Assembly: GCF_002214185.1 (NCBI RefSeq)
Contig: NZ_CP022161.1
Coordinates: 9,307,486-9,371,485 of the forward strand
Direction of reading: 5' to 3'
Length of the DNA: 64,000 nt
Origin: Streptomyces capitiformicae
Lineage (GTDB): Bacteria > Actinomycetota > Actinomycetes > Streptomycetales > Streptomycetaceae
Shown: piece by piece, positions 5,581 through 58,714 of the stretch
Numbering within the stretch: position 1 is the first letter of the stretch
How the letters are laid out: every line of letters begins with the position of its first letter
The notes under the pieces: generated by a model
The model's input: the letters and a program-made list of their open reading frames with translations, nothing else
Database searches by the model: none
Told to the model about the DNA's origin: nothing
Position numbers and translations under genes: made by a program

Positions 5581-5887
5581 CGCGAACGCTACTAACGGGT
5601 AAACCACGGGACAAGGGTTCTCGCGAGAGCAAAGAATCGTTGGGCCATTAGTAGGGACTCCACAAAGAAACCCGACCGGCCGCAGCGCGGCCGAACAGAG
5701 ACCTTGACCACATGAGAGGGCTAGGGTTTTCGCGTGGTGTCCTGCGCCATGCTGTGCGACAAGGGATTTCGCCGTTCGAGCGAGCCTCGTCTCACGCTCC
5801 GTGTGGGCAAGCTCACCATTGAGGACGGGTCGAAACGCCGTGTCGGCAGTCCCTAAACTCGGCTTGTTTCAAGGAGAGGGAGCCATC
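5581..5887. other. Divergent promoter region before accA2
   Basis: 307 bp between the membrane protein and accA2. It contains the small inverted repeat TCTCGCGAGA near 5619 and a TTGACC hexamer near 5703, but I cannot place a convincing -10. AAGGAG at 5872 is the accA2 ribosome binding site. Confidence 0.45.
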
Positions 5888-7663
5888 GTGCGCAAGGTGT
5901 TGATCGCCAACCGAGGCGAAATCGCTGTCCGCGTCGCCCGGGCGTGCCGGGACGCCGGGATCGCGAGCGTGGCCGTGTACGCCGATCCGGACCGGGACGC
6001 GCTGCATGTGCGTGTCGCGGACGAGGCGTTCGCCCTGGGCGGTGACACCCCGGCGACCAGCTACCTGGACATCGCCAAGGTGCTGCAGGCCGCGAAGGAC
6101 TCCGGCGCGGACGCGATCCACCCGGGCTACGGCTTCCTCTCGGAGAACGCTGACTTCGCGCAGGCGGTCCTGGACGCGGGCCTGATCTGGATCGGTCCGC
6201 CCCCGCAGGCGATCCGCGACCTCGGCGACAAGGTGGCGGCTCGTCACATCGCGCAGCGCGCGGGCGCCCCGCTGGTCGCGGGCACGCCCGACCCGGTGTC
6301 CGGCGCGGACGAGGTCGTGGCGTTCGCCGAGCAGCACGGCCTGCCGATCGCCATCAAGGCGGCGTTCGGCGGCGGCGGCCGCGGCCTGAAGGTCGCCCGC
6401 ACCCTGGAAGAAGTGCCCGAGCTGTACGACTCGGCCGTCCGCGAGGCGGTCGCGGCCTTCGGCCGCGGCGAGTGCTTCGTCGAGCGCTACCTGGACAAGC
6501 CCCGCCACGTCGAGACCCAGTGCCTGGCCGACAGCCACGGCAACGTGGTCGTGGTCTCCACCCGTGACTGCTCCCTCCAGCGCCGCCACCAGAAGCTGGT
6601 GGAGGAGGCCCCGGCCCCGTTCCTCTCCGACGAGCAGAACGCCGAGCTGTACGCGGCCTCGAAGGCCATCCTCAAGGAGGCCGGTTACGTCGGCGCCGGC
6701 ACCGTCGAGTTCCTCGTCGGCCTGGACGGGACGATCTCCTTCCTGGAGGTCAACACCCGTCTCCAGGTGGAGCACCCGGTCACCGAGGAGGTCACCGGCA
6801 TCGACCTGGTCCGCGAGATGTTCCGTATCGCCGACGGCGAGGCACTCGGCTACGACGACCCGCCGCTGCGCGGCCATTCCTTCGAGTTCCGCATCAACGG
6901 CGAGGACCCGGGCCGGGGCTTCCTCCCGGCTCCCGGCACGGTCACGACGTTCGCCCCGCCGACGGGTCCCGGTGTCCGTCTGGACGCGGGTGTGGAGTCC
7001 GGCTCGGTCATCGGCCCGGCCTGGGACTCCCTCCTCGCGAAGCTGATCGTCACCGGCGCCACCCGCCAGCAGGCTCTCCAGCGCGCGGCCCGCGCCCTGG
7101 ACGAGTTCACGGTCGAGGGCATGGCCACGGCGATCCCGTTCCACCGCGCGGTGGTGAGGGACCCGGCGTTCGCCCCCGAACTCACCGACGGCACGGACCC
7201 CTTCACGGTCCACACCCGCTGGATCGAGACCGAGTTCGTCAACGACATCAAGCCCTTCGCGGCCCCCGCCGACACCGCCGAGGCCGAGGACGAGGCCGAC
7301 CGCGAGACGGTCGTCGTCGAGGTCGGCGGCAAGCGCCTGGAGGTCTCCCTCCCCGCTTCCCTCGGCATGACCCTGGCCCGCACCGGCCTCGCGGCAGGCG
7401 CCAGGCCGAAGCGCCGCGCGACAAAGAAGTCGGGCCCTGTGGCCTCCGGCGACACCCTCGCTTCCCCCATGCAGGGCACGATCGTCAAGGTCGCCGTCGA
7501 GGAGGGCCAGGAGGTCAAGGAAGGCGACCTCGTCGTCGTCCTGGAGGCCATGAAGATGGAACAGCCCCTCAACGCCCACCGCTCCGGCACCATCAAGGCC
7601 CTGTCGGCCGAGGTGGGCGCCTCGGTCACCTCAGGCGCGGTGATCTGCGAGATCAAGGACTGA
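5888..7663 (+). CDS. accA2: Acyl-CoA carboxylase alpha chain (biotin carboxylase plus biotin carrier)
   Basis: Carboxylates its own biotin using ATP and bicarbonate and serves the beta subunits for acetyl- or propionyl-CoA. GTG at 5888 with AAGGAG 11 bp upstream gives 591 residues; the frame is open further upstream but lacks a site. The biotin carboxylase domain (1-450) carries [14 protein letters not shown], the ATP-binding GGGGRGLK, and [15 protein letters not shown] linker with Ala/Lys-rich sequence leads to the carrier domain with EAMKMEQP; Lys556 is the biotinylation site. The sequence is close to S. coelicolor AccA2 (SCO4921) as I remember it. Confidence 0.96.
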
Positions 7664-40626: not shown

Positions 40627-41472
<846 letters not shown>

Positions 41473-46582: not shown

Positions 46583-46840
46583 CTACCGCAACCTGATCCC
46601 GTAGGCGCGCTCCACGATCCACCGTTTGGGGATCGGCACGAACCCGGTCCGGGCCGGGTTCCGCTCGACAATCTCCACCTCGATGCCCACCTTCTGCCCG
46701 TGCGCGACGACGGCGTTCTCGGAGCCTTGGTCGACCAGGGCCTTCTGCGTGGTGTCGGTGTCGGCGGGGACCTTGTCCAGCAGGGCGATGTCTGCGGAGT
46801 TGTCGTGCACGGACGCGGCGAGCACCACCACGGCGATCAC
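46583..46840 (-). pseudogene. IS5-type transposase C-terminal fragment
   Basis: Reverse frame with ASVHDNSADIALLDKVPADT, KALVDQGSENAVVAHGQKVGIEVEIVERNP and FVPIPKRWIVERAYG, which is the DDE-domain end of IS5-family transposases (ERNP...F.P.PKRW.VE). It stops early at 46583 and lacks the N-terminal two thirds. Confidence 0.7.
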
Positions 46841-46954
46841 CAGGCCCGTGTTTCTGGAGCGCCGAGGTCAGCGAGCGGCACGAGGATCTGATACGACGCT
46901 CGGTCGAGCGGGCGCGGACCTGCGGCGAGATCGGGGACGACTGCCCGTGACAGG

Positions 46955-47140
46955 GTGCTGCTGCTGTTCGGTGCGCAGCAGCGGATCGACATCGCCGCCC
47001 GGCTGCTCGCAGACCCGGTCCAGACGGGCCGGAGTGTCACGGACATCGTCTGCGCGGTCGGCTTCAAGGACGCCTCACACTTCGCCCGCGCCTTCAAGAG
47101 CCGCCACTGCGTCAGCCCGCGTGAGTATCACAGGGATCAC
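46955..47140 (+). pseudogene. AraC family regulator, C-terminal HTH fragment
   Basis: The forward frame reads QQRIDIAARLLADPVQTGRSVTDIVCAVGFKDASHFARAFKSR plus SPREYHRDH, the second half of an AraC-type DNA-binding domain. The first HTH and the sensor domain are missing, and the frame continues into unrelated sequence. It abuts the IS5 scrap. Confidence 0.72.
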
Positions 47141-47225
47141 TCGGCTGCTCCACAGGGGCCTGGCGCAGAGCCTTTCCGGTGGCTGGTGGAGACTGGAAGA
47201 CGGCGTATGGTCTTTTTCCTTGTCT

Positions 47226-48038
47226 TCAGATCTCGTCGCCGCCGGGCCCGTGTCGTTGCGGGACGGCCGCCGAAGCCCGCTCTTCGATCCGGTGCACCGC
47301 GGCCCGCAGGTCGTCCAGGTGGCGCCGCGCCACTTCCTGCGCGGACATGACCGTCTTGCGCCAGGTCACGTTGACGCATCCCAGGACCTCCCCGTGCAGG
47401 CGGATGGGCACGGCGATCGAGTTGCGACCGTCGAAGTCGTACTCCGGTGCGCGCACGCTGTATCCACGGGACCGGGTGGTCGCCAGCAGACGCCGCAGCC
47501 AGCCCGGATCGTGGGCGTACGCGTTGCCCGGAGCGTCGTGCTCGCGCAGGCGGCGCAGGACCGCCTCCCGCTCCCGCTCGGCGCAGAAGGCGATGTAGGC
47601 CCGGCCCGAGGCGCCGAGCAGCATGTGCGAACGGAAACCGATGGGCGCCACGGGGACCACCTCGTCGAAATACGCCTTGGGGCTGTTCGTGTCGATCGTC
47701 TCCATGTAGTCCAACCGGGGCACGGTCAGCACCGACGGCCACATCACGCGCTCGCACAGCTCTTCCAGGACCGACGACGCCAGCTCGCCAAGCCACTCGG
47801 CGTCGTTGTAGGGGGCCCGCTGCGGTCTGAGGCTCGCGACGAACGCCCCGTCGGCGAGCCGCTGCCAGACCAGGCCCTCCTGGTTGCAGGTGTGGAGGAT
47901 GCGGATCAGGGTGGCTTTGGGGATGCCGGTGACCTGGTGCAGGTCGTGCAGGCTGGCGGCACGCATCGCCTCCAGGGCCTTCAGCACCTGTAGGCCGCGC
48001 TCGAGAGAGCTGATCGTTTTCACCTGGTACTGCCGCAT
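47226..48038 (-). CDS. IclR family transcriptional regulator
   Basis: 270 residues. The N-terminal winged helix (SLERGLQVLKALEAMRAASLHDLHQVTGIPKATLIRILHTCNQEGLVWQ) and the IclR effector domain (LTVPRLDYMETIDTNSP, GFRSHMLLGASGRAYIAF, YDFDGRNSIAVPIRLHGEVLGCVNVTW) are clear. It is divergent from the CoA-ligase/kinase/carboxylase operon with a perfect 15-bp palindrome between them, so it very likely controls that operon and senses its substrate or an intermediate. IclR regulators of aromatic pathways are often activators. Confidence 0.92.
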   Translation of the reverse strand: MRQYQVKTISSLERGLQVLKALEAMRAASLHDLHQVTGIPKATLIRILHTCNQEGLVWQRLADGAFVASLRPQRAPYNDAEWLGELASSVLEELCERVMWPSVLTVPRLDYMETIDTNSPKAYFDEVVPVAPIGFRSHMLLGASGRAYIAFCAEREREAVLRRLREHDAPGNAYAHDPGWLRRLLATTRSRGYSVRAPEYDFDGRNSIAVPIRLHGEVLGCVNVTWRKTVMSAQEVARRHLDDLRAAVHRIEERASAAVPQRHGPGGDEI

Positions 48039-48072
48039 GAGACGACCCTCACCTGCGAAGATGGAGAGTGGA

Positions 48073-48087
48073 TTTCACTAGGTGAAA
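48073..48087. promoter_or_regulatory. Operator TTTCACTAGGTGAAA (IclR site)
   Basis: Perfect 6-bp arms TTTCAC/GTGAAA with a 3-bp centre, 35 bp from the iclR start and 72 bp from the CoA ligase start. A half-site TTTTCACC lies at the beginning of iclR. Confidence 0.75.
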
Positions 48088-48158
48088 AGCTAGCAGGGAA
48101 CTGTTGCTTGCGTCCCGGCTCGTCGGAGACCGTTCCTCCGATGACGCGAGGAGGCGAC

Positions 48159-50231
48159 ATGACCGTCGAGACAGCAGGGGGCTTCCCTGCCACTGGTCGG
48201 GCACACGGCGCAGCCGGCAGGGCCGCCGTGGTGGCCGAAGGCGAGCTGCTGTGGACGCCCGGCCCGCGGCGGGTCGCGGAGGCCAATGTCACGCGGTTCG
48301 CGGACTGGCTGTCCCGGGAACGGGGGCTGCGGTTCGACGGCTACGACGAGCTGTGGAACTGGTCCGTCACCGACCTGGAGGGATTCTGGGGCGCCCTGTG
48401 GGACTACTTCGGCATCCGGTCGACGACCCCGTACTCCTCGGTGCTCGACGGCCGGGACATGCCGGGGGCGCGGTGGTTTCCCGGGGCGCGGCTGAACTAC
48501 GCCGAGCACGTACTGCGAAACGAACGGTCGGGCACCGACGCCGTGGTGTTCGGCTCCGAGAGCGCCGCTCCCGTCGGCCTTCCGTGGGAGGACTTCGCGG
48601 GCCGGGTGCGCGTCCTGGCGACCCGGTTGCGGGCGCTCGGCGTACGCCCCGGCGACCGGGTCTGCGGATATCTGCCGAACGTGCCTCAGGCCGCGATCGC
48701 GATGCTCGCGACGACGGCCATCGGGGCCGTATGGGCGAGCGCTTCCCCCGACTTCGGGTCGCGAGGCGTCATCGACCGGTTCGGCCAGCTCAGGCCGAAG
48801 GTCCTCTTCTGCGTCGACGGCTACCGCTACGGCGGAAAGACCTTCGACCGCCGGGACGAGGTGCGCCGCATCGCCGACGCGCTTCCCGGCCTGGAGCACG
48901 TGATCCACCTCCCCGTCCTCGACGACGGGGACGAGCCGCCGGCCGTCGGCGGCCTGCGCTGGGACGAGGTCCTCGACCACCCGCCCGTTCCCGCCGAAGA
49001 CTTCGAATTCGAGCACGTCCCCTTCGACCACCCGCTGTGGGTGCTCTTCTCCTCCGGTACGACCGGACTGCCCAAGGCGATCGTCCACGGGCACGGCGGC
49101 ATCCTGCTGGAGCAGCTGAAGCTGCAGACCTTCCACATGGACCTGCGCGAGGGCGACCGGCCGCTCTTCTTCACCACCACCGGCTGGATGATGTGGAACT
49201 TCCTGATCAGCTCCCTGCTGGTCGGCGCCTGCCCGGTGCTCTACGACGGCAACCCCGCCCACCCGGAGCCGGACGTGCTGTGGCGGATCGCGCAGGACAC
49301 CCGGACCACCTTCTTCGGCGCCAGCCCCGCCTACGTCGACCTCATGACCAAGGCCGGCATCGTCCCTGGCGAACGGTATGACCTGTCCGCCCTGCGCACG
49401 GTCATGCCCGCCGGCTCACCGGTGTCGCCCCAGTGCACCGCCTGGTTCTACGGCAACGTCAAGGCGGACCTGTGGATCGCCACCGGCAGCGGCGGCACCG
49501 ACTGCTGCACCGGCTTCGTCGGCGGTGTGCCCACCCTGCCCGTTTACGCCGGCGAGATGCAGGCACGCTCGCTGGGGGTCGCCGCGTACGCCTACGACGA
49601 GCACGGCCGCCAGGTCGTGGACGAGGTCGGCGAGCTGGTGATCACGGAGCCGCTGCCGTCCATGCCGGTCACGTTCTGGGGCCCGGACGGCGACGAGCGG
49701 TACCGCCGTACGTACTTCGAGGACTTCCCGGGCGCCTGGCGACACGGCGACTTCTTCAAGGTCAACGCTCGCGGCGGCTGCTTCGTACTCGGCCGCGCCG
49801 ACGCCACCCTCAACCGGCAGGGCGTGCGCATCGGCACCGCGGAGATCTACCGGGTCGTCGAAGCCCTCGAGCAGGTCACGGGAGCCCTGGTGGTCAGCCT
49901 CGACCTGCCGGACGAGAAGTTCTTCATGCCGCTGTTCGTCGCCCTGACCGACGGTGTCACCCTCGACGCCGGCCTCCGGCAGACGATCCGGGACCGACTC
50001 CGCCGCGAGTACAGCCCCCGCCACGTACCGGACCGCATCATCCAGGTCCCGGCCGTCCCGACCACCCTGACCGGCAAGAAGCTCGAGGTGCCGGCGCGCC
50101 GCATCCTGCTCGGCACCCCCGTCGAACAGGCGGCCGACCCGAGCGCGGTCGCCGACCCGCGCGCGCTCGACGCCCTCGCCCGCTACGCCCGTACCCAGCG
50201 CGACTACCCCTTGGCCACCGCCACCGTCTGA
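48159..50231 (+). CDS. Acetoacetyl-CoA synthetase-type beta-keto acid:CoA ligase
   Basis: ATP-dependent CoA activation of a beta-keto acid. The 690-residue protein starts at ATG 48159 (GAGGAGG upstream). The ANL-family core has FSSGTTGLPKAIVHGHGG (AMP-binding P-loop), TTTGWMMWN, GSGGTDCCTGFVG, the hinge HGDFFKV, and TGKKLEVPARR with the catalytic Lys. N-terminal LNYAEHVL is the ACAS signature. In this operon the substrate is more likely an aroylacetate made by the carboxylase than acetoacetate; thiolysis would then give aroyl-CoA and acetyl-CoA. A thiolase gene is not seen nearby. Confidence 0.88.
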   Translation: MTVETAGGFPATGRAHGAAGRAAVVAEGELLWTPGPRRVAEANVTRFADWLSRERGLRFDGYDELWNWSVTDLEGFWGALWDYFGIRSTTPYSSVLDGRDMPGARWFPGARLNYAEHVLRNERSGTDAVVFGSESAAPVGLPWEDFAGRVRVLATRLRALGVRPGDRVCGYLPNVPQAAIAMLATTAIGAVWASASPDFGSRGVIDRFGQLRPKVLFCVDGYRYGGKTFDRRDEVRRIADALPGLEHVIHLPVLDDGDEPPAVGGLRWDEVLDHPPVPAEDFEFEHVPFDHPLWVLFSSGTTGLPKAIVHGHGGILLEQLKLQTFHMDLREGDRPLFFTTTGWMMWNFLISSLLVGACPVLYDGNPAHPEPDVLWRIAQDTRTTFFGASPAYVDLMTKAGIVPGERYDLSALRTVMPAGSPVSPQCTAWFYGNVKADLWIATGSGGTDCCTGFVGGVPTLPVYAGEMQARSLGVAAYAYDEHGRQVVDEVGELVITEPLPSMPVTFWGPDGDERYRRTYFEDFPGAWRHGDFFKVNARGGCFVLGRADATLNRQGVRIGTAEIYRVVEALEQVTGALVVSLDLPDEKFFMPLFVALTDGVTLDAGLRQTIRDRLRREYSPRHVPDRIIQVPAVPTTLTGKKLEVPARRILLGTPVEQAADPSAVADPRALDALARYARTQRDYPLATATV

Positions 50232-50291
50232 GCCGCACCACCCTCGGAACCCCGCTCCCTACCGCCTGAGCCGCACACCCTGGAGAGCCCC

Positions 50292-52112
50292 GTGAACGAT
50301 GACAGAACCGCCCCCCGCTTCCCACTGCCCTCGGAACTGACCGATGTCGCGGGCGCCGAAGGCTGGGCGTCGATGTACCCGTACTACACCCGGTTCCAGC
50401 CCGGGGACGACCAGCGGTTCTGGTTCTACAACGCGATGCACTTCCCCGAGCCGATGCCCGCGTTCGACGCCATCACTGCCGAGGCGCCCTACACCGCTAT
50501 CGGCGCGAACACCGCGCGCATGTTCGTCTTCCCCACCACGCTCGGCATCGAGCACCGCATCGTCAACGGCCGGGTCTACATCACCGCCAACCCGGTCACC
50601 GACCCCGAGGAGATCCAGCACAGGCTCGCGGAGTTCAGCGAGCGGGCTGGGTACTACTACGAGAACTGGGACGACCTCTACCAGGGCTGGGTCGCCCGCA
50701 TCACCGCGCTGATCGACGAGGTGCAACGGATCGAGGTGCCCCGGCTGCCCGAGTTCGAGGACCCGGAGGTCGTGTTCCAGGCCAAGGGCGTGGCCCAGAA
50801 CCACTACGTCCGGGAGAACTACCACCGGCTGATCGACCTGTACTCCAAGATGTGGCACCACCACTCCGAGTTTCTGATGCTCGGCTACGGCGCCTACGTC
50901 GTGTTCTTCGAGTTCTGCAAGACGTCGTTCCCGGAGATCCCCGACCAGGACGTGGCCCGCATGGTCGCGGGGATCGACGTCATCCTCTACCGCCCGGACG
51001 ACGAGCTGAAGAAGCTGGCGAAGCTGGCGGTCGAGTACGGCGTCGACGATCTCTTCGTCGAGGGCTGCGAGCCCGACAAGGTGCTGGCCGCGCTCGCCGC
51101 CCGCGGGGACGGCGGCCGGAGCTGGCTGGAGGCGATGGACGCCGTGCGCGAGCCGTGGTTCAACATGTCGACCGGCGCCGGTTTCTACCATCACCACCGC
51201 AGCTGGAACGACGACCTCACGGTGCCGTTCGCGGCGCTGCCCGGCTATGTCGACCAGGCCAGGAGGGGCGAGCTGCTCGACCGCCCCACCGAACAGCTCA
51301 CGGCCGAGCGCGAGCGCATCGCCCAGGAGTATCGCTCCCTGCTGGCCGGAGAGGAGGAGCAGGCCGCCTTCGACCAGATGCTGGGCCTGGCCCGGGTGGT
51401 CTTCCCCTTCGTCGAGGACCACAACTTCTACTGCGAGCACTACTTCACCACCAAGTTCTTCGCCAAGGTCCGCGAGTTCGGTGAGCTGCTCCATGACCAC
51501 GGGGTCCTGGCCGACGCCGAGGACGTCTTCCAGCTGAACCACACCGAGGTCGGCCAGGCCCTGACCGACGTGATGCTCGCCTGGGCGGCCGGGAGCAAGC
51601 CGGTGGGCTCGGCACACGTGCGCGAGACGGTCGCTGAGCGCAAGCGGATGCTGGAAGCCCTCGCGGGCTGGTCCCCGCCGCCCGCGCTGGGACCGGTCCC
51701 CGAGGTACTCAACGACCCGGCGGTCCGCATGCTGTGGGGCATCACCGCCGAGACCATCCAGGCCTGGTCCACACCGACCGCGGACGGCGATCACGAGGTG
51801 CGCGGCTTCGCCGCCTCGCCGGGCGTCGTCGAGGGCACCGCCCGGGTGCTGCTCAGCGCCAACGACATCGGCCAGGTACGGGAGGGCGAGGTGCTGGTTT
51901 GTCCGGTGACCGCGCCCAGCTGGGGCCCGGTCTTCGGCAAGATCGCGGCCGCCGTCTCGGACATCGGCGGCACCATGTCGCACGCGGCGATCGTGGCCCG
52001 TGAGTACGGGCTGCCCGCCGTCGTCGGCACAGGCCACGCCACCAAGCGGATCACCACCGGCCAGCGGCTGCGCGTGGACGGCGACCGCGGCATCGTCACC
52101 ATCCTCGACTGA
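50292..52112 (+). CDS. Phenol-phosphorylating synthase, large subunit (PEP-synthase-like swivelling His domain)
   Basis: 606 residues from GTG 50292. The C-terminal ~90 residues are the PEP-utilising mobile domain, GFAASPGVVEGTARVLLSANDIG...DIGGTMSHAAIVAREYGLPAVVGTG, with His564 as phosphocarrier. The N-terminal ~500 residues are the substrate-binding part seen in the 70-kDa subunit of phenylphosphate synthase (PpsA of Thauera) and in HpeH/AcvA-type kinases. The ATP-grasp half is the separate next gene. This split is normal for aryl-phosphate synthases and not a frameshift: the genes are in order and each has its own ribosome binding site. Expected reaction: phenolic substrate plus ATP gives aryl phosphate, AMP and phosphate. 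Confidence 0.83.
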   Translation: MNDDRTAPRFPLPSELTDVAGAEGWASMYPYYTRFQPGDDQRFWFYNAMHFPEPMPAFDAITAEAPYTAIGANTARMFVFPTTLGIEHRIVNGRVYITANPVTDPEEIQHRLAEFSERAGYYYENWDDLYQGWVARITALIDEVQRIEVPRLPEFEDPEVVFQAKGVAQNHYVRENYHRLIDLYSKMWHHHSEFLMLGYGAYVVFFEFCKTSFPEIPDQDVARMVAGIDVILYRPDDELKKLAKLAVEYGVDDLFVEGCEPDKVLAALAARGDGGRSWLEAMDAVREPWFNMSTGAGFYHHHRSWNDDLTVPFAALPGYVDQARRGELLDRPTEQLTAERERIAQEYRSLLAGEEEQAAFDQMLGLARVVFPFVEDHNFYCEHYFTTKFFAKVREFGELLHDHGVLADAEDVFQLNHTEVGQALTDVMLAWAAGSKPVGSAHVRETVAERKRMLEALAGWSPPPALGPVPEVLNDPAVRMLWGITAETIQAWSTPTADGDHEVRGFAASPGVVEGTARVLLSANDIGQVREGEVLVCPVTAPSWGPVFGKIAAAVSDIGGTMSHAAIVAREYGLPAVVGTGHATKRITTGQRLRVDGDRGIVTILD

Positions 52113-52129
52113 GCGTGGGGAGCACGACA

Positions 52130-53230
52130 ATGAACACCTCACCTCATGTCCGCCGGTTCGCGGAACTGCGGCTGACGGACCGGCCCACGGTCGGCGGCAA
52201 GGGCGCGAGCCTCGGCGAACTCACCTTCGCCGGCGCCCCCGTACCGCCCGGCTACGTCGTCACCACCACGGCCTTCGATGCCTTCCTCGGCGCCCTCGAC
52301 CCGGACGGCGAGATCCGCACCGCCATCGAGGCGCTGGACTCCGAGGACACCGAGGCGATCACCCGCGTGGTCACACCCGTCAGGGAGCGCATCGAGGCGG
52401 CCGAACTGCCCGAAGAGGTGGCGGCGGCGATCCGCGGCCACTACCGCGACCTGGACAGCGAGTCCGACACCCCGGGTGAGCCCGCCCCCGTCGCCGTACG
52501 CTCCAGCGCCACCAGCGAAGACGCGGAGGACGCCAGCTTCGCCGGCCTCCAGGACACCTACCTGTGGGTGCGCGGCGAGGACGCCCTTGTCGAGAACGTC
52601 CGCCGCTGCTGGGCCAGCCTCTACAGCGTCGAGTCGGTCAGCTACCGGCGTCGCCTCGGCCTGCCGGAACACGACCTCGCCATGGCCGTCGTCGTCCAGC
52701 GCATGATCGACCCGCGCTGCGCCGGCGTCATGTTCACCCGCAGCCCGCTCACCGGCGACCGCTCGGTCGTCGCCCTGGAAGCGTCCTGGGGCCTGGGGTC
52801 CGCTCTCGTCAGCGGTGACGTGACACCCGACAAGTACGTGGTCGGCAAGGTCACCGGAGACATCTGCTCCCGCACCGTCTCGGCCAAGCTGCGACAGCAC
52901 CGGATGGACCCGAGCGGCTCCGGGGTGCTGGAGGAGGACGTACCGGAATACCTCCGGGACGAACCCTGTCTGTCCGACGAGGAGATCCACGAACTCGTGA
53001 CGCTCGGCCGGCAGGTCGAGTCCCACTACGGGGCACCACAGGACATCGAGTGGGCGATCTCCCGCAACCTCGCCCCCGGCCACAACATCTACCTGCTCCA
53101 AAGCCGCCCCGAAACCGTCTGGGCGAGCCGGGAGAAGGCCCCGACGGCCTCGCCGAAGGCCAGGGCGTTCGACCACGTGCTGTCGCTGCTCGGCGGCGCG
53201 GGCTCCGGCCCCGGTGGGAGTACGAAGTGA
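52130..53230 (+). CDS. Phenol-phosphorylating synthase, ATP-binding subunit
   Basis: 366 residues from ATG 52130 (GGGGAG upstream; GTG 52115 possible). It is the PPDK/PEP-synthase N-terminal ATP-grasp alone: VGGKGASLGELTFAGAPVPPGYV, VAVRSSATSEDAEDASFAGLQDTYL, RCAGVMFTRSPLTGD, EASWGLGSALVSGDVTPD and the closing IEWAI...IYLLQSRPE. It transfers the beta-phosphate of ATP to the His of the larger subunit. It matches the ~40-kDa PpsB-like subunit in size and order. Its stop overlaps the biotin-carrier gene start (GTGA). Confidence 0.85.
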   Translation: MNTSPHVRRFAELRLTDRPTVGGKGASLGELTFAGAPVPPGYVVTTTAFDAFLGALDPDGEIRTAIEALDSEDTEAITRVVTPVRERIEAAELPEEVAAAIRGHYRDLDSESDTPGEPAPVAVRSSATSEDAEDASFAGLQDTYLWVRGEDALVENVRRCWASLYSVESVSYRRRLGLPEHDLAMAVVVQRMIDPRCAGVMFTRSPLTGDRSVVALEASWGLGSALVSGDVTPDKYVVGKVTGDICSRTVSAKLRQHRMDPSGSGVLEEDVPEYLRDEPCLSDEEIHELVTLGRQVESHYGAPQDIEWAISRNLAPGHNIYLLQSRPETVWASREKAPTASPKARAFDHVLSLLGGAGSGPGGSTK

Positions 53231-53717
53231 ACCTGACCGGCGAGGACGTCCAGGACATCCTGCGGATCATCGACGGCATGGAGGTCGACCGCCTCCATCT
53301 GCGTACGGGTCGGTTCGAACTGTCGCTTTGCCGTGGCGACGACGGCGCGTGGACACAGTCCGCACGCACGACAGCCGAACCGGTGCTGGTCGATGACCGA
53401 CAAGTACCCGCGGTCCAGGGCGTGGCAGCTGCGGACAGGCAGACTGAGCCCGCCCGCGAGGGCCTGACCGGGGTCCGTACACCTCTGCCCGGTGCTTTCT
53501 ACCGGGCGCCGAAACCCGGCGCGGCACCCTTCGTCGAGATCGGGGACGAGGTCACCGAGACCACGGTCGTCGGGATCGTCGAGACGATGAAACTGATGAA
53601 CTCCGTGTACGCGGAGGCCTCCGGCACAGTGGCCGAAATCGTCTTGGGGGACGGCGAGTTCGCCGAGCAGGGTGCCGTGCTCATGTTCATCGACCCACTG
53701 GCGACAGGGGTGGCGCC

Positions 53718-53721
<4 letters not shown>
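53227..53721 (+). CDS. Biotin carboxyl carrier protein
   Basis: 164 residues from GTG 53227, overlapping the previous stop by 4 bp. N-terminal DVQDILRIIDGMEVDRLHLRTGRFELSL is the assembly segment, followed by a Pro/Ala linker and the lipoyl-like domain with VGIVETMKLMNSVYAEASG, where Lys122 is the biotin site. It differs from the AccA2 fused carrier and from lone AccB by its short linker. It forms one carboxylase with the next two genes. Confidence 0.9.
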
Positions 53722-55074
<1,353 letters not shown>

Positions 55075-55082
<8 letters not shown>

Positions 55083-56550
55083 CATCCAGCTCGTCGACGT
55101 GTCGCTGCGCGACGGCAACCAGAGCCTGTGGAGCGCCACCGGACTCGACACCGGCAAGATCCTCCAGATCGCGCCGGTCCTGGACCGGGTCGGCTTCCGC
55201 GCCCTCGACTACACCTCCAGCACCCACATGGGCATGGCGGTGCGCACCCACCGCGAGGACCCGTGGGAGCGGATACGGCTGACGCACCGCGCCATGCCGA
55301 ACACCCCTCTGCAGTTCATCGGCACCGGGCTGCGCTTCATCTCCTGGGAAGTCGCCCACCCCGAGTTCATGCAACTGGTCTACGACCGGCTGGTGGCCAA
55401 CGGGGTCACCCGGTACGTCGTCCTGGACCCCATGCACGACATGGACGCCGTACGCGAGTCCGCGCGCATGATCCGAGCAGCTGGGGCCACCGAGATCGTC
55501 GGAGCACTGACCTTCACTGTCAGCGACGTCCACGACGACGCCCACTACGCCTCGCTCGCGGCGCAGATGGCCGCCTGCCCGGACATCGACCGGGTCTACA
55601 TCAAGGATCCTGGCGGGCTGCTGACGTCGGAACGCGCCGCCACACTGATCCCGGCCGTCCTGGGCAAGCTCGTCGGCACACCGCTGGAGCTGCACTCCCA
55701 CTGCACGATCGGTCTGCCGGGCCTGACCTACCTCAAGGCTGCCGACCTGGGCGTACAGGCCCTGCAGGTAGCCTGCGGGGCTCTTGCTGGCGGCACGTCC
55801 CTGCCCAACGCCCAGCAGGTCGTGGCCAATCTGCGCGAAATCGGCCACACCGTGGACGTCGACGACCGGCTGCTGGGCGTGGTCGCCGACTACTTCGACG
55901 GCATGGCGGCGGCCGAGGGGCTGCCCGTCGGCGGTCCCCGGGACTACGACGCCGCGTTCATGCGCCACCAGGTCGCAGGCGGGGTCATGACCACCCTGCA
56001 CCGGCAGCTCGACGAACTCGGTTTCAGCGACCGCTTCGACGCGGTCATCGAGGAGGTGACCCGCGTCCGCGCCGAACTCGGCCACCCCATCATGGTCACC
56101 CCCTTCCCGCAGATGGTGTGCACCCAGGCCCTCTACAACGTGATCGGCACCGAACGCTACGAGAACGTCTCCGACCCGGTGATCCGGTACGTGCTGGGCA
56201 GCTTCGGCCGCCCCACCGCCCCCGTGGACCCGCAGGTCGCCGACCGCATCCTGGGACGGCCCCGGGCGAAGGAACTCGCCGCCGAACCGCCCCCGCCCAC
56301 CGTCGCCGAACTGCGTCGGCGCCTCCCGCGCGGCATCAGCGACGAAGAACTGCTGCTGCGGGCCACCATGCCCGCCGAGCAGGTGGACGCCATGGTGGCC
56401 GCCGGTCCGGCCCGACGGCACTACAACCCCGACGTCAAACCGGTGCTCGACCTGCTCCAAGGCCTACGGACACGCCCGGCGACACCCGAACTGATCCTCG
56501 ACCGGCCCGACTTCCGACTGGAGCTGCACCGTGACCGCCGACCCGTCTGA
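55075..56550 (+). CDS. Carboxyltransferase subunit of the HMGL/pyruvate-carboxylase type
   Basis: 491 residues from GTG 55075 (GGAGG upstream; overlaps the biotin carboxylase by 8 bp). TIM-barrel DRE-type domain: VDVSLRDGNQSLWSA (metal Asp), RVYIKDPGGLL with Lys177 that would be carboxylated, and LELHSHCTIGLPG with the metal-binding His207 and His209. The C-terminal part resembles the oxaloacetate-decarboxylase/pyruvate-carboxylase tail (VTPFPQMVCTQALYNV). Carboxyltransferases of this class act on a ketone alpha carbon, which fits carboxylation of an acetophenone methyl group. Pyruvate as substrate is the main alternative. Confidence 0.85.
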
Positions 56551-57463
56551 CGAGGCTGCCGCCCGCGTGACCGCCGAAACGGCTGATGAGACCGACGACC
56601 TGACTGGCCGTCTGCGGGCCGTCCGGGGCGTCGTCTTCGACATGGACGGCACGCTCGTCCTGGGCGACCGACGCAACCACGGGCTCACCCCCCTCCCTGG
56701 AGCCCTGGAACTCACGGCCGACCTCACCGCCCGCGGCCTGCCCTGGGTCACCTTCACCAACGGCACCGCCCGCACCCCGGAGGCCTACGCCGAGACGCTG
56801 CGCCGCATCGGTTTCGACCTGCCGGACGACGCCATGCTCACTCCGGCGACCAGCGCCGTCGACCACTTCCTGGCCATGGGACACCGCAGCGCGCTGGTGC
56901 TCGGCGGCGACGGCCTGAAGGAGCCGCTTCGCCAAGCCGGCATCGAGATCGTCGAGCCCAAGGGCAAGCCGGAAGCCGACGCCGTGCTCGTCGGCTGGTA
57001 CCGCGAGTTCACGATGGACGACCTGGAAGCCGCCTGCCACGCCGTCTTCGGAGGCGCCACCCTGTACAGCAGCTCACAGTCGGTGTTCTTCGCCAGCGCC
57101 GACGGTCGAGCACTGGGCACATCCCGGGCCATCTGCGCCATGGTCAGCAGTGTCACGGGCGTCACCGAACAGGTCGTGGGCAAGCCCTCACTCACCGGCC
57201 TGCGCTGCGCCGCGCGCCGACTGGGCGTCGCCCCGCAACACCTCGCCGTCGTTGGAGACGACCCGGAACTGGAGATGGCGATGGCCCGGCGTGCCGGGGC
57301 TATCGGCATCGCGGTGACCACCGGCATCCACGCGGCGAACCACTTCACCACACTGTCCTCGGAGCAGCGCCCGCATCTCACCGTCGAGGGCGTGGGCGGG
57401 CTGATCACCCTGTTGCCCGCCCCGCGCTCCCACCCCACCGAGAACGGATCCGTACCGACATGA
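56531..57463 (+). CDS. HAD-superfamily (IIA, NagD-like) phosphatase
   Basis: 310 residues from GTG 56531, overlapping the previous gene by 20 bp. Motif I VVFDMDGTLVLGD (Asp37 nucleophile, Asp39 acid), motif II TFTNGTAR, motif III VVGKPS, motif IV VVGDDPELEMAMA. The NagD-type cap lies between motifs II and III. In this operon it would remove phosphate from the carboxylated aryl phosphate, the HpeD/AcvF step. HAD-IIA enzymes are often promiscuous phosphatases, so the sequence alone does not fix the substrate. Confidence 0.87.
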   Translation: MTADPSDEAAARVTAETADETDDLTGRLRAVRGVVFDMDGTLVLGDRRNHGLTPLPGALELTADLTARGLPWVTFTNGTARTPEAYAETLRRIGFDLPDDAMLTPATSAVDHFLAMGHRSALVLGGDGLKEPLRQAGIEIVEPKGKPEADAVLVGWYREFTMDDLEAACHAVFGGATLYSSSQSVFFASADGRALGTSRAICAMVSSVTGVTEQVVGKPSLTGLRCAARRLGVAPQHLAVVGDDPELEMAMARRAGAIGIAVTTGIHAANHFTTLSSEQRPHLTVEGVGGLITLLPAPRSHPTENGSVPT

Positions 57464-58068
57464 CCACCACGACCGCCTCCCTGCGACCGAGCGCCCATCC
57501 CGGAGTCCTTGCCGACCTAGTCCCCGGATCCGCCCTCCTGCGGGACGCTCTTCTCGTCGTCGGCGGCGCGGGCCTCACCGGCCTCTGCGCCCAGGTCTCC
57601 CTGCACACACCGCTCAGCCCCGTGCCCTTCACCCTCCAGACCCTCGCGGTCCTGCTGGTCGGCACCGCGCTCGGTGCCGTTCGCGGGGCGTCGGCCATGC
57701 TGCTCTATCTCGCCGCTGGCGCCGCCGGAGTGCCCTGGTTCGCCAACCACACCCATGGTCTGGGCGGCCCCAGCTTCGGCTATGTCGTCGGTTTCGTCCT
57801 CGCCGCCGCCCTCGTCGGCGAACTCGCCCGCCGCGGCATCGACCGCGGCGTCCTGGGAACCGCCGGGCTGATGACGTTGGGCAATGCAGTCATCTACCTG
57901 GCGGGAATCGTGGGGCTGGCCATGGACCTGAACCTCGGCGCCCAACAGGCCATCGCTTTGGGAGTCACCCCGTTCCTCATCACCGACGCGCTCAAGACCG
58001 CCCTGGCGGCAGGACTGCTGCCACTCGTCTGGCGAGGCGTGGCGTCGACAGCGGCCCCTGAAGAGTGA
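57460..58068 (+). CDS. bioY: Biotin transporter, BioY family
   Basis: 202 residues from ATG 57460 (ATGA overlap with the phosphatase). Six hydrophobic spans. The substrate-binding stretch SPVPFTLQTLAVLLVGTALG and the LYLAAGAAGVPWFANHTHGLGGPSFGYVVGFVLAAALVGELA segment are BioY hallmarks. It is the S-component of an ECF importer, though BioY can work alone. Its place at the end of a biotin-carboxylase operon suggests uptake of biotin to meet demand when the carboxylase is induced. Confidence 0.93.
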   Translation: MTTTTASLRPSAHPGVLADLVPGSALLRDALLVVGGAGLTGLCAQVSLHTPLSPVPFTLQTLAVLLVGTALGAVRGASAMLLYLAAGAAGVPWFANHTHGLGGPSFGYVVGFVLAAALVGELARRGIDRGVLGTAGLMTLGNAVIYLAGIVGLAMDLNLGAQQAIALGVTPFLITDALKTALAAGLLPLVWRGVASTAAPEE

Positions 58069-58285
58069 AAACGCCGGTGCTCTTGCGAGGTTCCTGGCGC
58101 GGCCGGAGCCGCGGCCGCCGCGCGCTGCGCAAGACGCCTGGCCGGTTCCGGCCGGTGGTCAGCGGGTGTGGCGGCGGACCGCGTCCAGGAGTTGGGGCAT
58201 CCAGCAGGCTGAAGCTTCCCCTTGATCGTGGACACCTGGAGACTGGGATCTAGAGGTTCCAGAGGAAGTAGCACCAGGTGGGAAG

Positions 58286-58714
58286 CAAGTATCGCCGATC
58301 GCGGTGCTGATCCTGATCGCGACCCTGCGCGGCATCGACGAACGCCTGGAGGACGCCGCGGCCAGCATGGGCGCGGGCCGGCTCACGATCGCCCGGCGCA
58401 TCACCTTCCCCCTGGCCGCACCCGGCATGATCGCAGCGGCGATCTTCTCCTTCATCACCAGCTTCGACGAGTTCTACATCTCCCAGTTCCTCTCCTCCGT
58501 CGACACGGTCACCCTGCCGGTGCGGGTCTACAACTCCCTCACCTTCGAGATCGACCCCAGCGTCACCGCGGTCAGCGCGCTCCTCACCGCCTTCGCCATC
58601 CTCGCCCTCGGCCTGGTGGCCCTGGTCCGCTGGATCGGCTCCGGACGACAGGGCTCCCTGCTCTCGGTCGAGAACACGGCAGGGGTCGCCAACCCTGGAG
58701 GCGAGACGGTATGA
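58286..58714 (+). pseudogene. PotC-type ABC transporter permease, C-terminal half only
   Basis: The frame gives about 140 residues: ATLRGIDERLEDAAASMGA (the EAA motif of permeases), RITFPLAAPGMIAAAIFSF and FDEFYISQFLS, as in spermidine/putrescine PotC. A full protein is ~265 residues; the first three or four membrane spans are missing, and nothing homologous is found in the 217 bp between bioY and here. It is probably a relic of a polyamine importer. Confidence 0.75.

Follow-up and report, generated by a model that had tools for sequence, protein, structure and literature searches.

The closest described relatives of the operon analyzed here are hpeHICBADEF of Rhodococcus rhodochrous GD02 and acvABCDEF of Sphingobium lignivorans SYK-6, and acvABCDEF has been described as syntenous to hpeHICBAD (PMC9618137). 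In that account, SYK-6 has no homologues of HpeE or HpeF and uses the nonhomologous VceA/VceB, and HpeF of GD02 is 95% identical to CouO of RHA1. Growth on hydroxyphenyl ketones has been reported as limited to four strains, with kinase and carboxylase genes clustered in 52 of 836 cases, and Novosphingobium MarK has been described as a single-component kinase (PMC13101465). We examined 64,000 nucleotides (nt) of Streptomyces capitiformicae (NZ_CP022161.1, positions 9,307,486 to 9,371,485, forward strand; hereafter, the window, whose own numbering is used below). An earlier note on this DNA had proposed an Hpe/Acv-like operon at positions 47226 to 58068. The region encodes each of the six core Hpe/Acv subunits, together with a coenzyme A (CoA) ligase of the HpeE type, and the kinase and carboxyltransferase trees agree with that proposal. 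The operon is very probably catabolic and directed at 4-hydroxyphenyl methyl ketones, namely, 4-hydroxyacetophenone, acetovanillone, and perhaps acetosyringone.

Profile matches placed every gene of the earlier note's list in this region. The operon opens with an AMP-forming beta-keto-acid (acetoacetate-type) CoA ligase resembling HpeE (ATG at 48159, ending at 50231, plus strand, as for all genes that follow; NF002937, 917 bits against a cutoff of 639). Next are the HpeH/AcvA-like alpha subunit of a dikinase, with substrate and swivel-His domains of the phosphoenolpyruvate (PEP)-utiliser/His type (50292 to 52112; NF006153, the PRK08296 model, 804 bits against a cutoff of 578), and the HpeI/AcvB-like ATP-grasp beta subunit (PPDK_N; 52115 to 53230; PF01326, 344 bits). 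The three carboxylase subunits comprise an HpeC-like biotin carboxyl carrier protein with the biotin motif ETMKLM (53227 to 53721; PF00364), a biotin carboxylase (BC; 53718 to 55082; PF00289, PF02786, and PF02785), and a carboxyltransferase (CT) of the PYC_OADA type with the signature RDGNQSLW (55075 to 56550; PF02436 over its cutoff). A HAD-IIA phosphatase resembling HpeD and AcvF, with a DMDGT motif (56531 to 57463; PF13344 and PF13242), and a BioY biotin transporter component (57460 to 58068; PF02632, 120.6 bits) complete the series. Characteristic motifs are thus present in four subunits, that of the alpha kinase subunit being given below. An IclR-family regulator gene is divergent from the operon (47226 to 48038, minus strand; PF09339 and PF01614 over their cutoffs), a placement repeated in other loci.

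The likely true starts of the carrier and CT genes lie downstream of the printed open reading frame (ORF) starts at 53050 and 54943. The overlaps noticed earlier at most junctions from 53.2 kb on were borne out, at 4, 4, 8, 20, and 4 nt, the 20-nt overlap becoming 0 if an in-frame GTG at 56567 is taken as an alternative start of the phosphatase gene. All nine frames of the region are open in S. capitiformicae. Among the loci compared, BioY stands beside the operon only in the window, in Streptomyces sp. MA5143a, and in S. torulosus. The operon is real rather than a chance arrangement, because MA5143a matches the block over 11.2 kb at 97.0% identity and the gene order recurs in distant bacteria across phyla (Streptosporangiales, Geodermatophilaceae, an Acidobacteria metagenome-assembled genome, and Proteobacteria).

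For comparison with GD02, the locus of Rhodococcus sp. JS3073 (L032 in our numbering of loci) served as a stand-in, because its beta kinase subunit is near-identical over 366 residues to PDB entry 9GOJ, which is HpeI (PMC12167813), and because it carries the same gene set; its other genes presumably equal those of GD02. Grouping of the CT with pyruvate and oxaloacetate enzymes had been set beforehand as the result that could refute an Hpe/Acv-like operon. In a 53-row tree that included pyruvate carboxylase (PYC) rows, the window CT instead fell in a separate 41-row clade (support of 100/100) with the Acv-type, JS3073, Pseudomonas putida YC-AE1, and pBAR1 enzymes, and the proposal was not refuted. 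Outside it lay eight PYC and OadA rows (five and three, respectively), a row of 26% identity placed next to OadA, and L033, L117, and L189, each about 37% identical. Within the clade, the branching order of JS3073, Rhizobium, and the Acv type is weakly supported (80/25 and 81/42). Among the 17 rows printed for inspection, all 8 in-clade rows carried RDGNQSLW or RDGNQCLW, and all 6 PYC/OadA rows carried RD[AG]HQSLx-ATR, a signature that the window CT does not have; two of the rows of about 37% identity showed RDAHQCLW-ATR, intermediate between the two. RDGNQSLW was also a search word for loci, so only the plasmid and Sphingobium rows, found otherwise, are free evidence for the signature. The label "HMGL-type" given to this CT in the earlier note is a weak one: PF00682 just passes by hmmscan (32.6 bits against a cutoff of 29), and a genome-wide PF00682 search returned seven places among the matches listed, none of them inside the window. 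Clade membership with GD02- and Acv-type enzymes, together with the carrier motif, identifies a three-subunit biotin carboxylase of the HpeCBA type.

The alpha kinase subunit carries SDIGGTMSH, which fits the motif S-x-x-GG-x-x-x-H given for HpeH (PMC12167813), and the best PDB match of the beta subunit is 9GOJ (279.7 bits). A swivel-domain catalytic-His motif is thus paired with a separate ATP-grasp (PPDK_N) subunit, as in two-component dikinases. In a 39-row tree of concatenated alpha and beta subunits, the window kinase fell in a 34-row clade (100/99) with Sphingobium Acv-type kinases. The rows of JS3073, Thermomicrobium, and Azoarcus Pps lay outside it, as did two Cre-like rows from Rhodococcus. 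This grouping was kept at 100/99 to 100/100 in four reduced trees (a reduced set and the omission of Thermomicrobium, Pps, or Cre in turn), and single-subunit trees built without the Sphingobium rows likewise put the window kinase away from JS3073, Pps, and Cre. The kinase therefore groups with ketone kinases of the Acv type rather than with phenol or cresol kinases; JS3073 falls beyond this clade, and its position with respect to Pps is uncertain. The Sphingobium kinase was found in 8 of 94 genomes of the genus, and the 7 of these loci that were inspected all show the order kinase, kinase, carrier, BC, CT, phosphatase. The two Rhodococcus clusters are presumed to be Cre-like from a reading of their neighboring genes.

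The likeness to both Hpe and Acv asserted earlier stands, in that homologues of both types could be aligned, with the qualification that most subunits are nearer the Acv type. Identities to the Acv type and to JS3073 are, respectively, 55% and 49% (alpha kinase), 55% and 43% (beta kinase), 63% and 53% (BC), 56% and 45% (CT), and 43% and 39% (phosphatase). Only the carrier reverses this trend (44% and 51%), the 51% extending over just 49% of the carrier length. By these values, the window operon is closer to the Acv type than to GD02-type Hpe. Like acvABCDEF, it has genes for both kinase subunits, the three subunits of the carboxylase, and the phosphatase in identical order; it adds an HpeE-type ligase in front, the divergent IclR gene, and BioY. 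It shares with the GD02 form homologues of the kinase, carboxylase, phosphatase, and ligase at 39 to 53%, the cluster-borne HpeE-type ligase being a feature of that form (42% identity to the JS3073 ligase and 66% to that of YC-AE1). It differs from GD02 in having the ligase gene first rather than seventh, in having no hpeF, and in the subclade of its kinase and carboxylase. The gene order of JS3073 (carrier, BC, and CT) and the stated masses of HpeB (49.3 kDa) and HpeA (57.4 kDa) would fit HpeB as the biotin carboxylase and HpeA as the carboxyltransferase, which is the reverse of the assignment printed in Table 1 of PMC9618137.

The closest annotated cluster lies on a plasmid of P. putida YC-AE1 and resembles that of the window (CT, 68%; BC, 70%; ligase, 66%; phosphatase, 56%; carrier, 44%), including the IclR type (54%) and two copies of the palindrome TTTCAC-N3-GTGAAA discussed below. 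In contrast to the window, it has a single Tm-1-like protein in place of the two-subunit kinase and a hydrolase inside the cluster. Ligase and hydrolase genes also lie inside the clusters of Rhizobium leguminosarum BT01 and Rhodococcus JS3073, which have the same gene set. The YC-AE1 plasmid (L028) and Pseudomonas sp. ZH-FAD (L043) carry near-identical ketone clusters, that of L028 being followed by an IS5 transposase gene. When bisphenol A is degraded, these clusters are candidates for handling the 4-hydroxyacetophenone branch. The YC-AE1 transcriptome paper names another enzyme for that step, and it gives no support for the cluster, because its main text makes no mention of a carboxylase, acetoacetate, or amidohydrolase and a 4-hydroxyacetophenone hydrolase is named among the bisphenol genes (PMC9733184).

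The earlier note expected a thiolase as the last step and found none nearby. No such step is indeed encoded in the operon; the expected enzyme is instead a beta-keto-CoA hydrolase of the CouO/HpeF type, with a candidate elsewhere in the genome. There is no hpeF-type hydrolase among the genes of the window operon, which sets it apart from the GD02 form and not from the Hpe/Acv family, because SYK-6 is also reported to lack HpeF. With the YC-AE1 cluster hydrolase as the query, a single match was found in the S. capitiformicae genome (64% identity, genome positions 931524 to 932387). This candidate CouO-type gene lies 8.4 Mb from the operon, beside MarR, SDR, AMP-binding ligase, and MaoC genes. 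Such a neighborhood matches what we take to be the content of the cou hydroxycinnamate cluster, and we call it cou-like. CouO-type homologues (43 to 64% identity) were present in 15 of 15 operon-bearing genomes tested, including 5 of 5 Streptomyces, all chosen among the loci in hand; as a control, a CouO-type gene was found at an E value of ≤1e−60 in 22 of the 61 genomes of the relatives set, S. capitiformicae included. Because the gene also occurs in relatives without the operon's CT, it is best seen as a resident gene that the operon could use and not as a marker. A thiolase or BKACE enzyme was rejected as the last step: a profile search found no BKACE (PF05853) in the genome, and a BKACE-type gene occurred in only 4 of 80 related loci, all Sphingomonadales records.

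Candidates for further catabolism are also present. They include a PobA-type hydroxylase over the NF006091 cutoff, a PcaG match over its cutoff with a second, sub-cutoff match adjoining it (a PcaGH candidate), and two VanA_C oxygenase genes, both with a ferredoxin-reductase-type gene next to them (VanAB candidates). In the pathway that we propose, the two-subunit dikinase would transfer phosphate to the hydroxyl group on the ring via a phospho-His, and the three-subunit biotin enzyme would carboxylate the acetyl methyl group of the phosphorylated ketone. The HAD enzyme would then take off the phosphate to give an aroylacetate, which the CoA ligase would convert to aroylacetyl-CoA. A CouO-type hydrolase from the cou-like cluster at 0.93 Mb would split this into acetyl-CoA and 4-hydroxybenzoate or vanillate, to be degraded further by PobA or VanAB, respectively, and then PcaGH. 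The divergent IclR protein would control the operon through the TTTCAC-N3-GTGAAA site.

Several points weigh against this pathway. The window kinase and GD02-type HpeHI do not group tightly. The branch uniting JS3073 and the window against Pps and Cre, at 97/86 in the full tree, drops to 83/71 and 84/71 in reduced trees, and with Cre left out, the GD02-type (JS3073) kinase pairs with Pps at 95/89. The Sphingobium anchors are presumed to be Acv on the basis of gene order. The CouO-type gene is not operon specific, being present in 21 of 60 other relatives without the operon (including 12 of 36 other Streptomyces), and the PobA candidate misses the stricter TIGR02360 cutoff (498 of 539 bits). 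The operon has decayed in S. caniscabiei. The YC-AE1 transcriptome paper assigns the 4-hydroxyacetophenone step to a different enzyme, a "hydrolase" termed hah (PMC9733184). Finally, what the Streptomyces sequence shows is the gene content, the subunit motifs, the clade membership, candidate downstream genes, and the recurring site, and it is from these that every reaction, the substrate, and the regulation are inferred. The alternatives considered next overlap with the proposed pathway, and their likelihoods need not sum to one.

The same chemistry might serve a different main natural substrate, such as a hydroxyphenyl ketone with a longer alkyl chain, an acetophenone derived from flavonoids, or a ketone released from a bisphenol-like compound. 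The window CT is nearer that of YC-AE1 (68%), a bisphenol A degrader (PMC9733184), than the Acv-type (56%) or GD02-type (45%) enzyme, and the window kinase subclade has no biochemically tested member among the rows identified. Bisphenol breakdown would itself feed the hydroxyacetophenone pathway, as a 4-hydroxyacetophenone enzyme figures among the bisphenol genes of the YC-AE1 paper (PMC9733184), and the tested kinases on both sides of the window in the tree (HpeHI and AcvAB) act on hydroxyacetophenones by published work. On balance, we consider another main substrate unlikely.

The distribution of the operon in Streptomyces bears on a second alternative. A CT orthologue (at least 93% identity) was found in 4 of 392 Streptomyces genomes, S. 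capitiformicae included, and a fifth genome held only a 38% relative. The operon CT was found in none of 60 other relatives, 20 of which gave weaker matches (best per genome, 26 to 32%). One Streptomyces genome (G278) carries the CT gene twice, at 316151 to 317617 and 11223216 to 11224682 of an 11.54-Mb contig; the copies are mirrored and lie some 316 kb in from either end of the contig, as would copies within terminal inverted repeats. Named carriers are MA5143a, S. torulosus, S. stelliscabiei, S. caniscabiei, and S. ipomoeae, the last three being named as species with plant-pathogenic members (PMC10711302). DNA identity over the shared block is 97.0% in MA5143a (46937 to 58150), 96.3% in S. 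torulosus, and 97.0% in S. stelliscabiei (ending at 57510); other carriers show 86 to 91% in pieces. The flanks of this 10- to 11-kb block are mostly unlike, with S. torulosus sharing part of the left flank and MA5143a having one 72% match to window positions 40652 to 41217 close to the block. In each of the five named carriers, the cou-like genes share 91 to 92% identity with those of S. capitiformicae. The block, 96 to 97% alike in three genomes, is thus better conserved than another catabolic locus in those genomes, and this one comparison locus suggests recent transfer among Streptomyces.

In this second alternative, the block is horizontally acquired cargo, silent and without function in S. 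capitiformicae. Gene relics lie on both sides: at the left edge of the shared block, the C-terminal piece of an AraC-type helix-turn-helix gene (46955 to 47131, plus strand; PF12833, 49.6 bits), and to its right, an ABC transporter permease fragment (58304 to 58714, plus strand; PF00528, 37.3 bits over profile positions 70 to 176 of 184). A left-edge ORF at 46583 to 46840 had no Pfam match, and a transposase remnant there is an unproven impression. In S. caniscabiei NE06-02D (L037, 6533 to 12309), the equivalent of window positions 47690 to 52096 is missing, such that a regulator fragment adjoins the beta kinase gene, the ligase and alpha kinase genes are gone, and the phosphatase gene is broken; one of the four orthologue-bearing genomes above (G272; L115) has the same split phosphatase match as S. 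caniscabiei. The operon is thus dispensable in S. caniscabiei. In S. capitiformicae, all frames are open, the block is kept at 96 to 97% identity in three other species, and the operator-like site is retained, all of which make a silent cassette improbable.

It is still less probable that the operon serves phenol or 4-cresol, with the kinase forming phenylphosphate or cresyl phosphate like PpsAB or CreHI. These enzymes share the two-subunit dikinase superfamily and His motif with the window kinase, whose subunits are 47 and 44% identical to Pps and 44 and 41% identical to the Cre-like proteins, and the pairing of the GD02-type ketone kinase with Pps in one reduced tree suggests that ketone and phenol use may not split cleanly. 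However, Pps and Cre lie outside the window kinase clade and have other partner genes. Unlike the Azoarcus and Rhodococcus clusters, the operon has no ppc carboxylase, P450, or dehydrogenase genes (a profile search for phenylphosphate carboxylase [Ppc] genes found none among the operon genes and did find them in the Azoarcus reference), and its carboxylase, phosphatase, and ligase would be left without a function. The automatic labels PYC_OADA and PEP-utilisers suggest an operon of central metabolism, in which an anaplerotic pyruvate carboxylase or an oxaloacetate decarboxylase has a PEP synthase-like partner; this is the least probable alternative, given the CT clade that excludes PYC and OadA rows at 100/100, CT scores below the curated cutoff of every NCBIfam PYC/OadA model listed, and a PYC-like open frame of 1,156 amino acids at another locus of the genome.

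Beyond Streptomyces, a single scan of genome contigs with the search words RDGNQSLW and A[ED]LG[YH]PIM yielded 440 relatives, of which the best 80 were kept; these loci are ranked by closeness to the query and are not a random sample, and the occurrence of RDGNQSLW in them is partly a product of the search. By a fixed rule, both kinase subunits lay by the CT in 45 of the 80 loci, a Tm-1-like protein stood there instead in 20, both arrangements occurred in 0, and neither occurred in 15. Among these 15, 11 have less than 4 kb of contig before the CT, L037 is the decayed copy, and L059 was missed by the rule, its best alpha-subunit match lying elsewhere in the locus. Both kinase subunits with the carrier, BC, and phosphatase were found in 39 of the 80 loci, the ligase in 29, and the hydrolase in 6. 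The Tm-1-like protein is putatively a kinase, perhaps one like MarK. The carboxylase module was found in Actinobacteria, Acidobacteria, Proteobacteria, and desulfuromonads. The earlier description of the pathway as rare therefore needs qualifying: the two-subunit kinase is present in 45 of the 80 loci retained as closest, and the carboxylase module is spread over several phyla. The published survey of 836 clusters may well hold the present loci.

Some of these loci, and one part of the window, deserve separate mention. Geobacteraceae and Desulfuromonadaceae loci (L039, L040, and L042) have carboxylase clusters with two Tm-1-like genes each; these families are anaerobes, and the clusters perhaps represent an anaerobic form of the pathway. 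A less closely related cluster on plasmid pRB98 of Rhodococcus oxybenzonivorans S2-17 (L189, 1139 to 11175) combines the gene for a dikinase with those for a carrier, BC, CT (37%), an OB-fold protein, a thiolase, and a tyrosine-phosphatase-type protein; it may represent an independent route of phosphorylation, carboxylation, and dephosphorylation in which a thiolase acts last. Within the window, a fused biotin carboxylase and carrier gene of the acyl-CoA-carboxylase alpha type (5801 to 7663) is separate from the operon.

The divergent intergenic region between the IclR and ligase genes contains the operator-like palindrome TTTCAC-N3-GTGAAA at 48073 to 48087, its single occurrence in the window (0 in 100 shuffles). 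The exact palindrome was present in 12 of 190 loci, every one of which has a carboxylase operon of the Hpe/Acv kind (the two-subunit kinase in 5 and the Tm-1-like protein in 7), and also in two further Streptomyces loci. Among 29 loci with an IclR-like regulator, several of them near-copies and thus not 29 independent cases, 26 have the site within 300 bases around the regulator start (11 exact, 13 with one mismatch, and 2 with two mismatches). It was missed in three (L031, L052, and L055); in one of these, the Rhizobium locus L031, an exact copy immediately precedes the operon. When 300-base windows were drawn at random from these loci, the mean number of mismatches was 4.2 to 5.5; in the 26 loci, 1 to 4.5% of such windows did as well, and these are taken to be windows covering the sites themselves. 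The loci represent Streptomyces, Streptosporangiales, Geodermatophilaceae, Pseudomonas, Rhizobium, and Novosphingobium. We regard the palindrome as a putative IclR operator that recurs beside related operons in distant bacteria; in the open-licence literature, no paper was found naming such a site for an acetovanillone-related IclR protein.

A broader view, offered tentatively and with somewhat less than even confidence, is that the block is a mobile 10- to 11-kb cassette for the catabolism of plant-wound and lignin ketones. It would circulate within Streptomyces, including several strains of species that have plant-pathogenic representatives, and depend on a resident hydroxycinnamate (cou-like) pathway for its final step. 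It would also belong to a cross-phylum module in which the pair of IclR and operator (TTTCAC-N3-GTGAAA) and the carboxylase/phosphatase core are kept while the front kinase is swapped between a two-subunit dikinase and a Tm-1-like protein. In the open-licence literature, we found no report joining Streptomyces with 4-hydroxyacetophenone and a carboxylase or with vanAB/vanillate, and by title, nothing on acetosyringone degradation and scab.

What is new here is a Streptomyces member of the known Hpe/Acv pathway; the broader module, the palindrome that recurs, and the apparent transfer deserve further attention. The carboxylase module is spread across several phyla, and the putative regulator site could serve to find further members of the pathway. 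The enzymes are candidates for use in lignin conversion. For the organisms themselves, the operon predicts that some Streptomyces, including species in which plant pathogens occur, can use phenolic ketones from plants.

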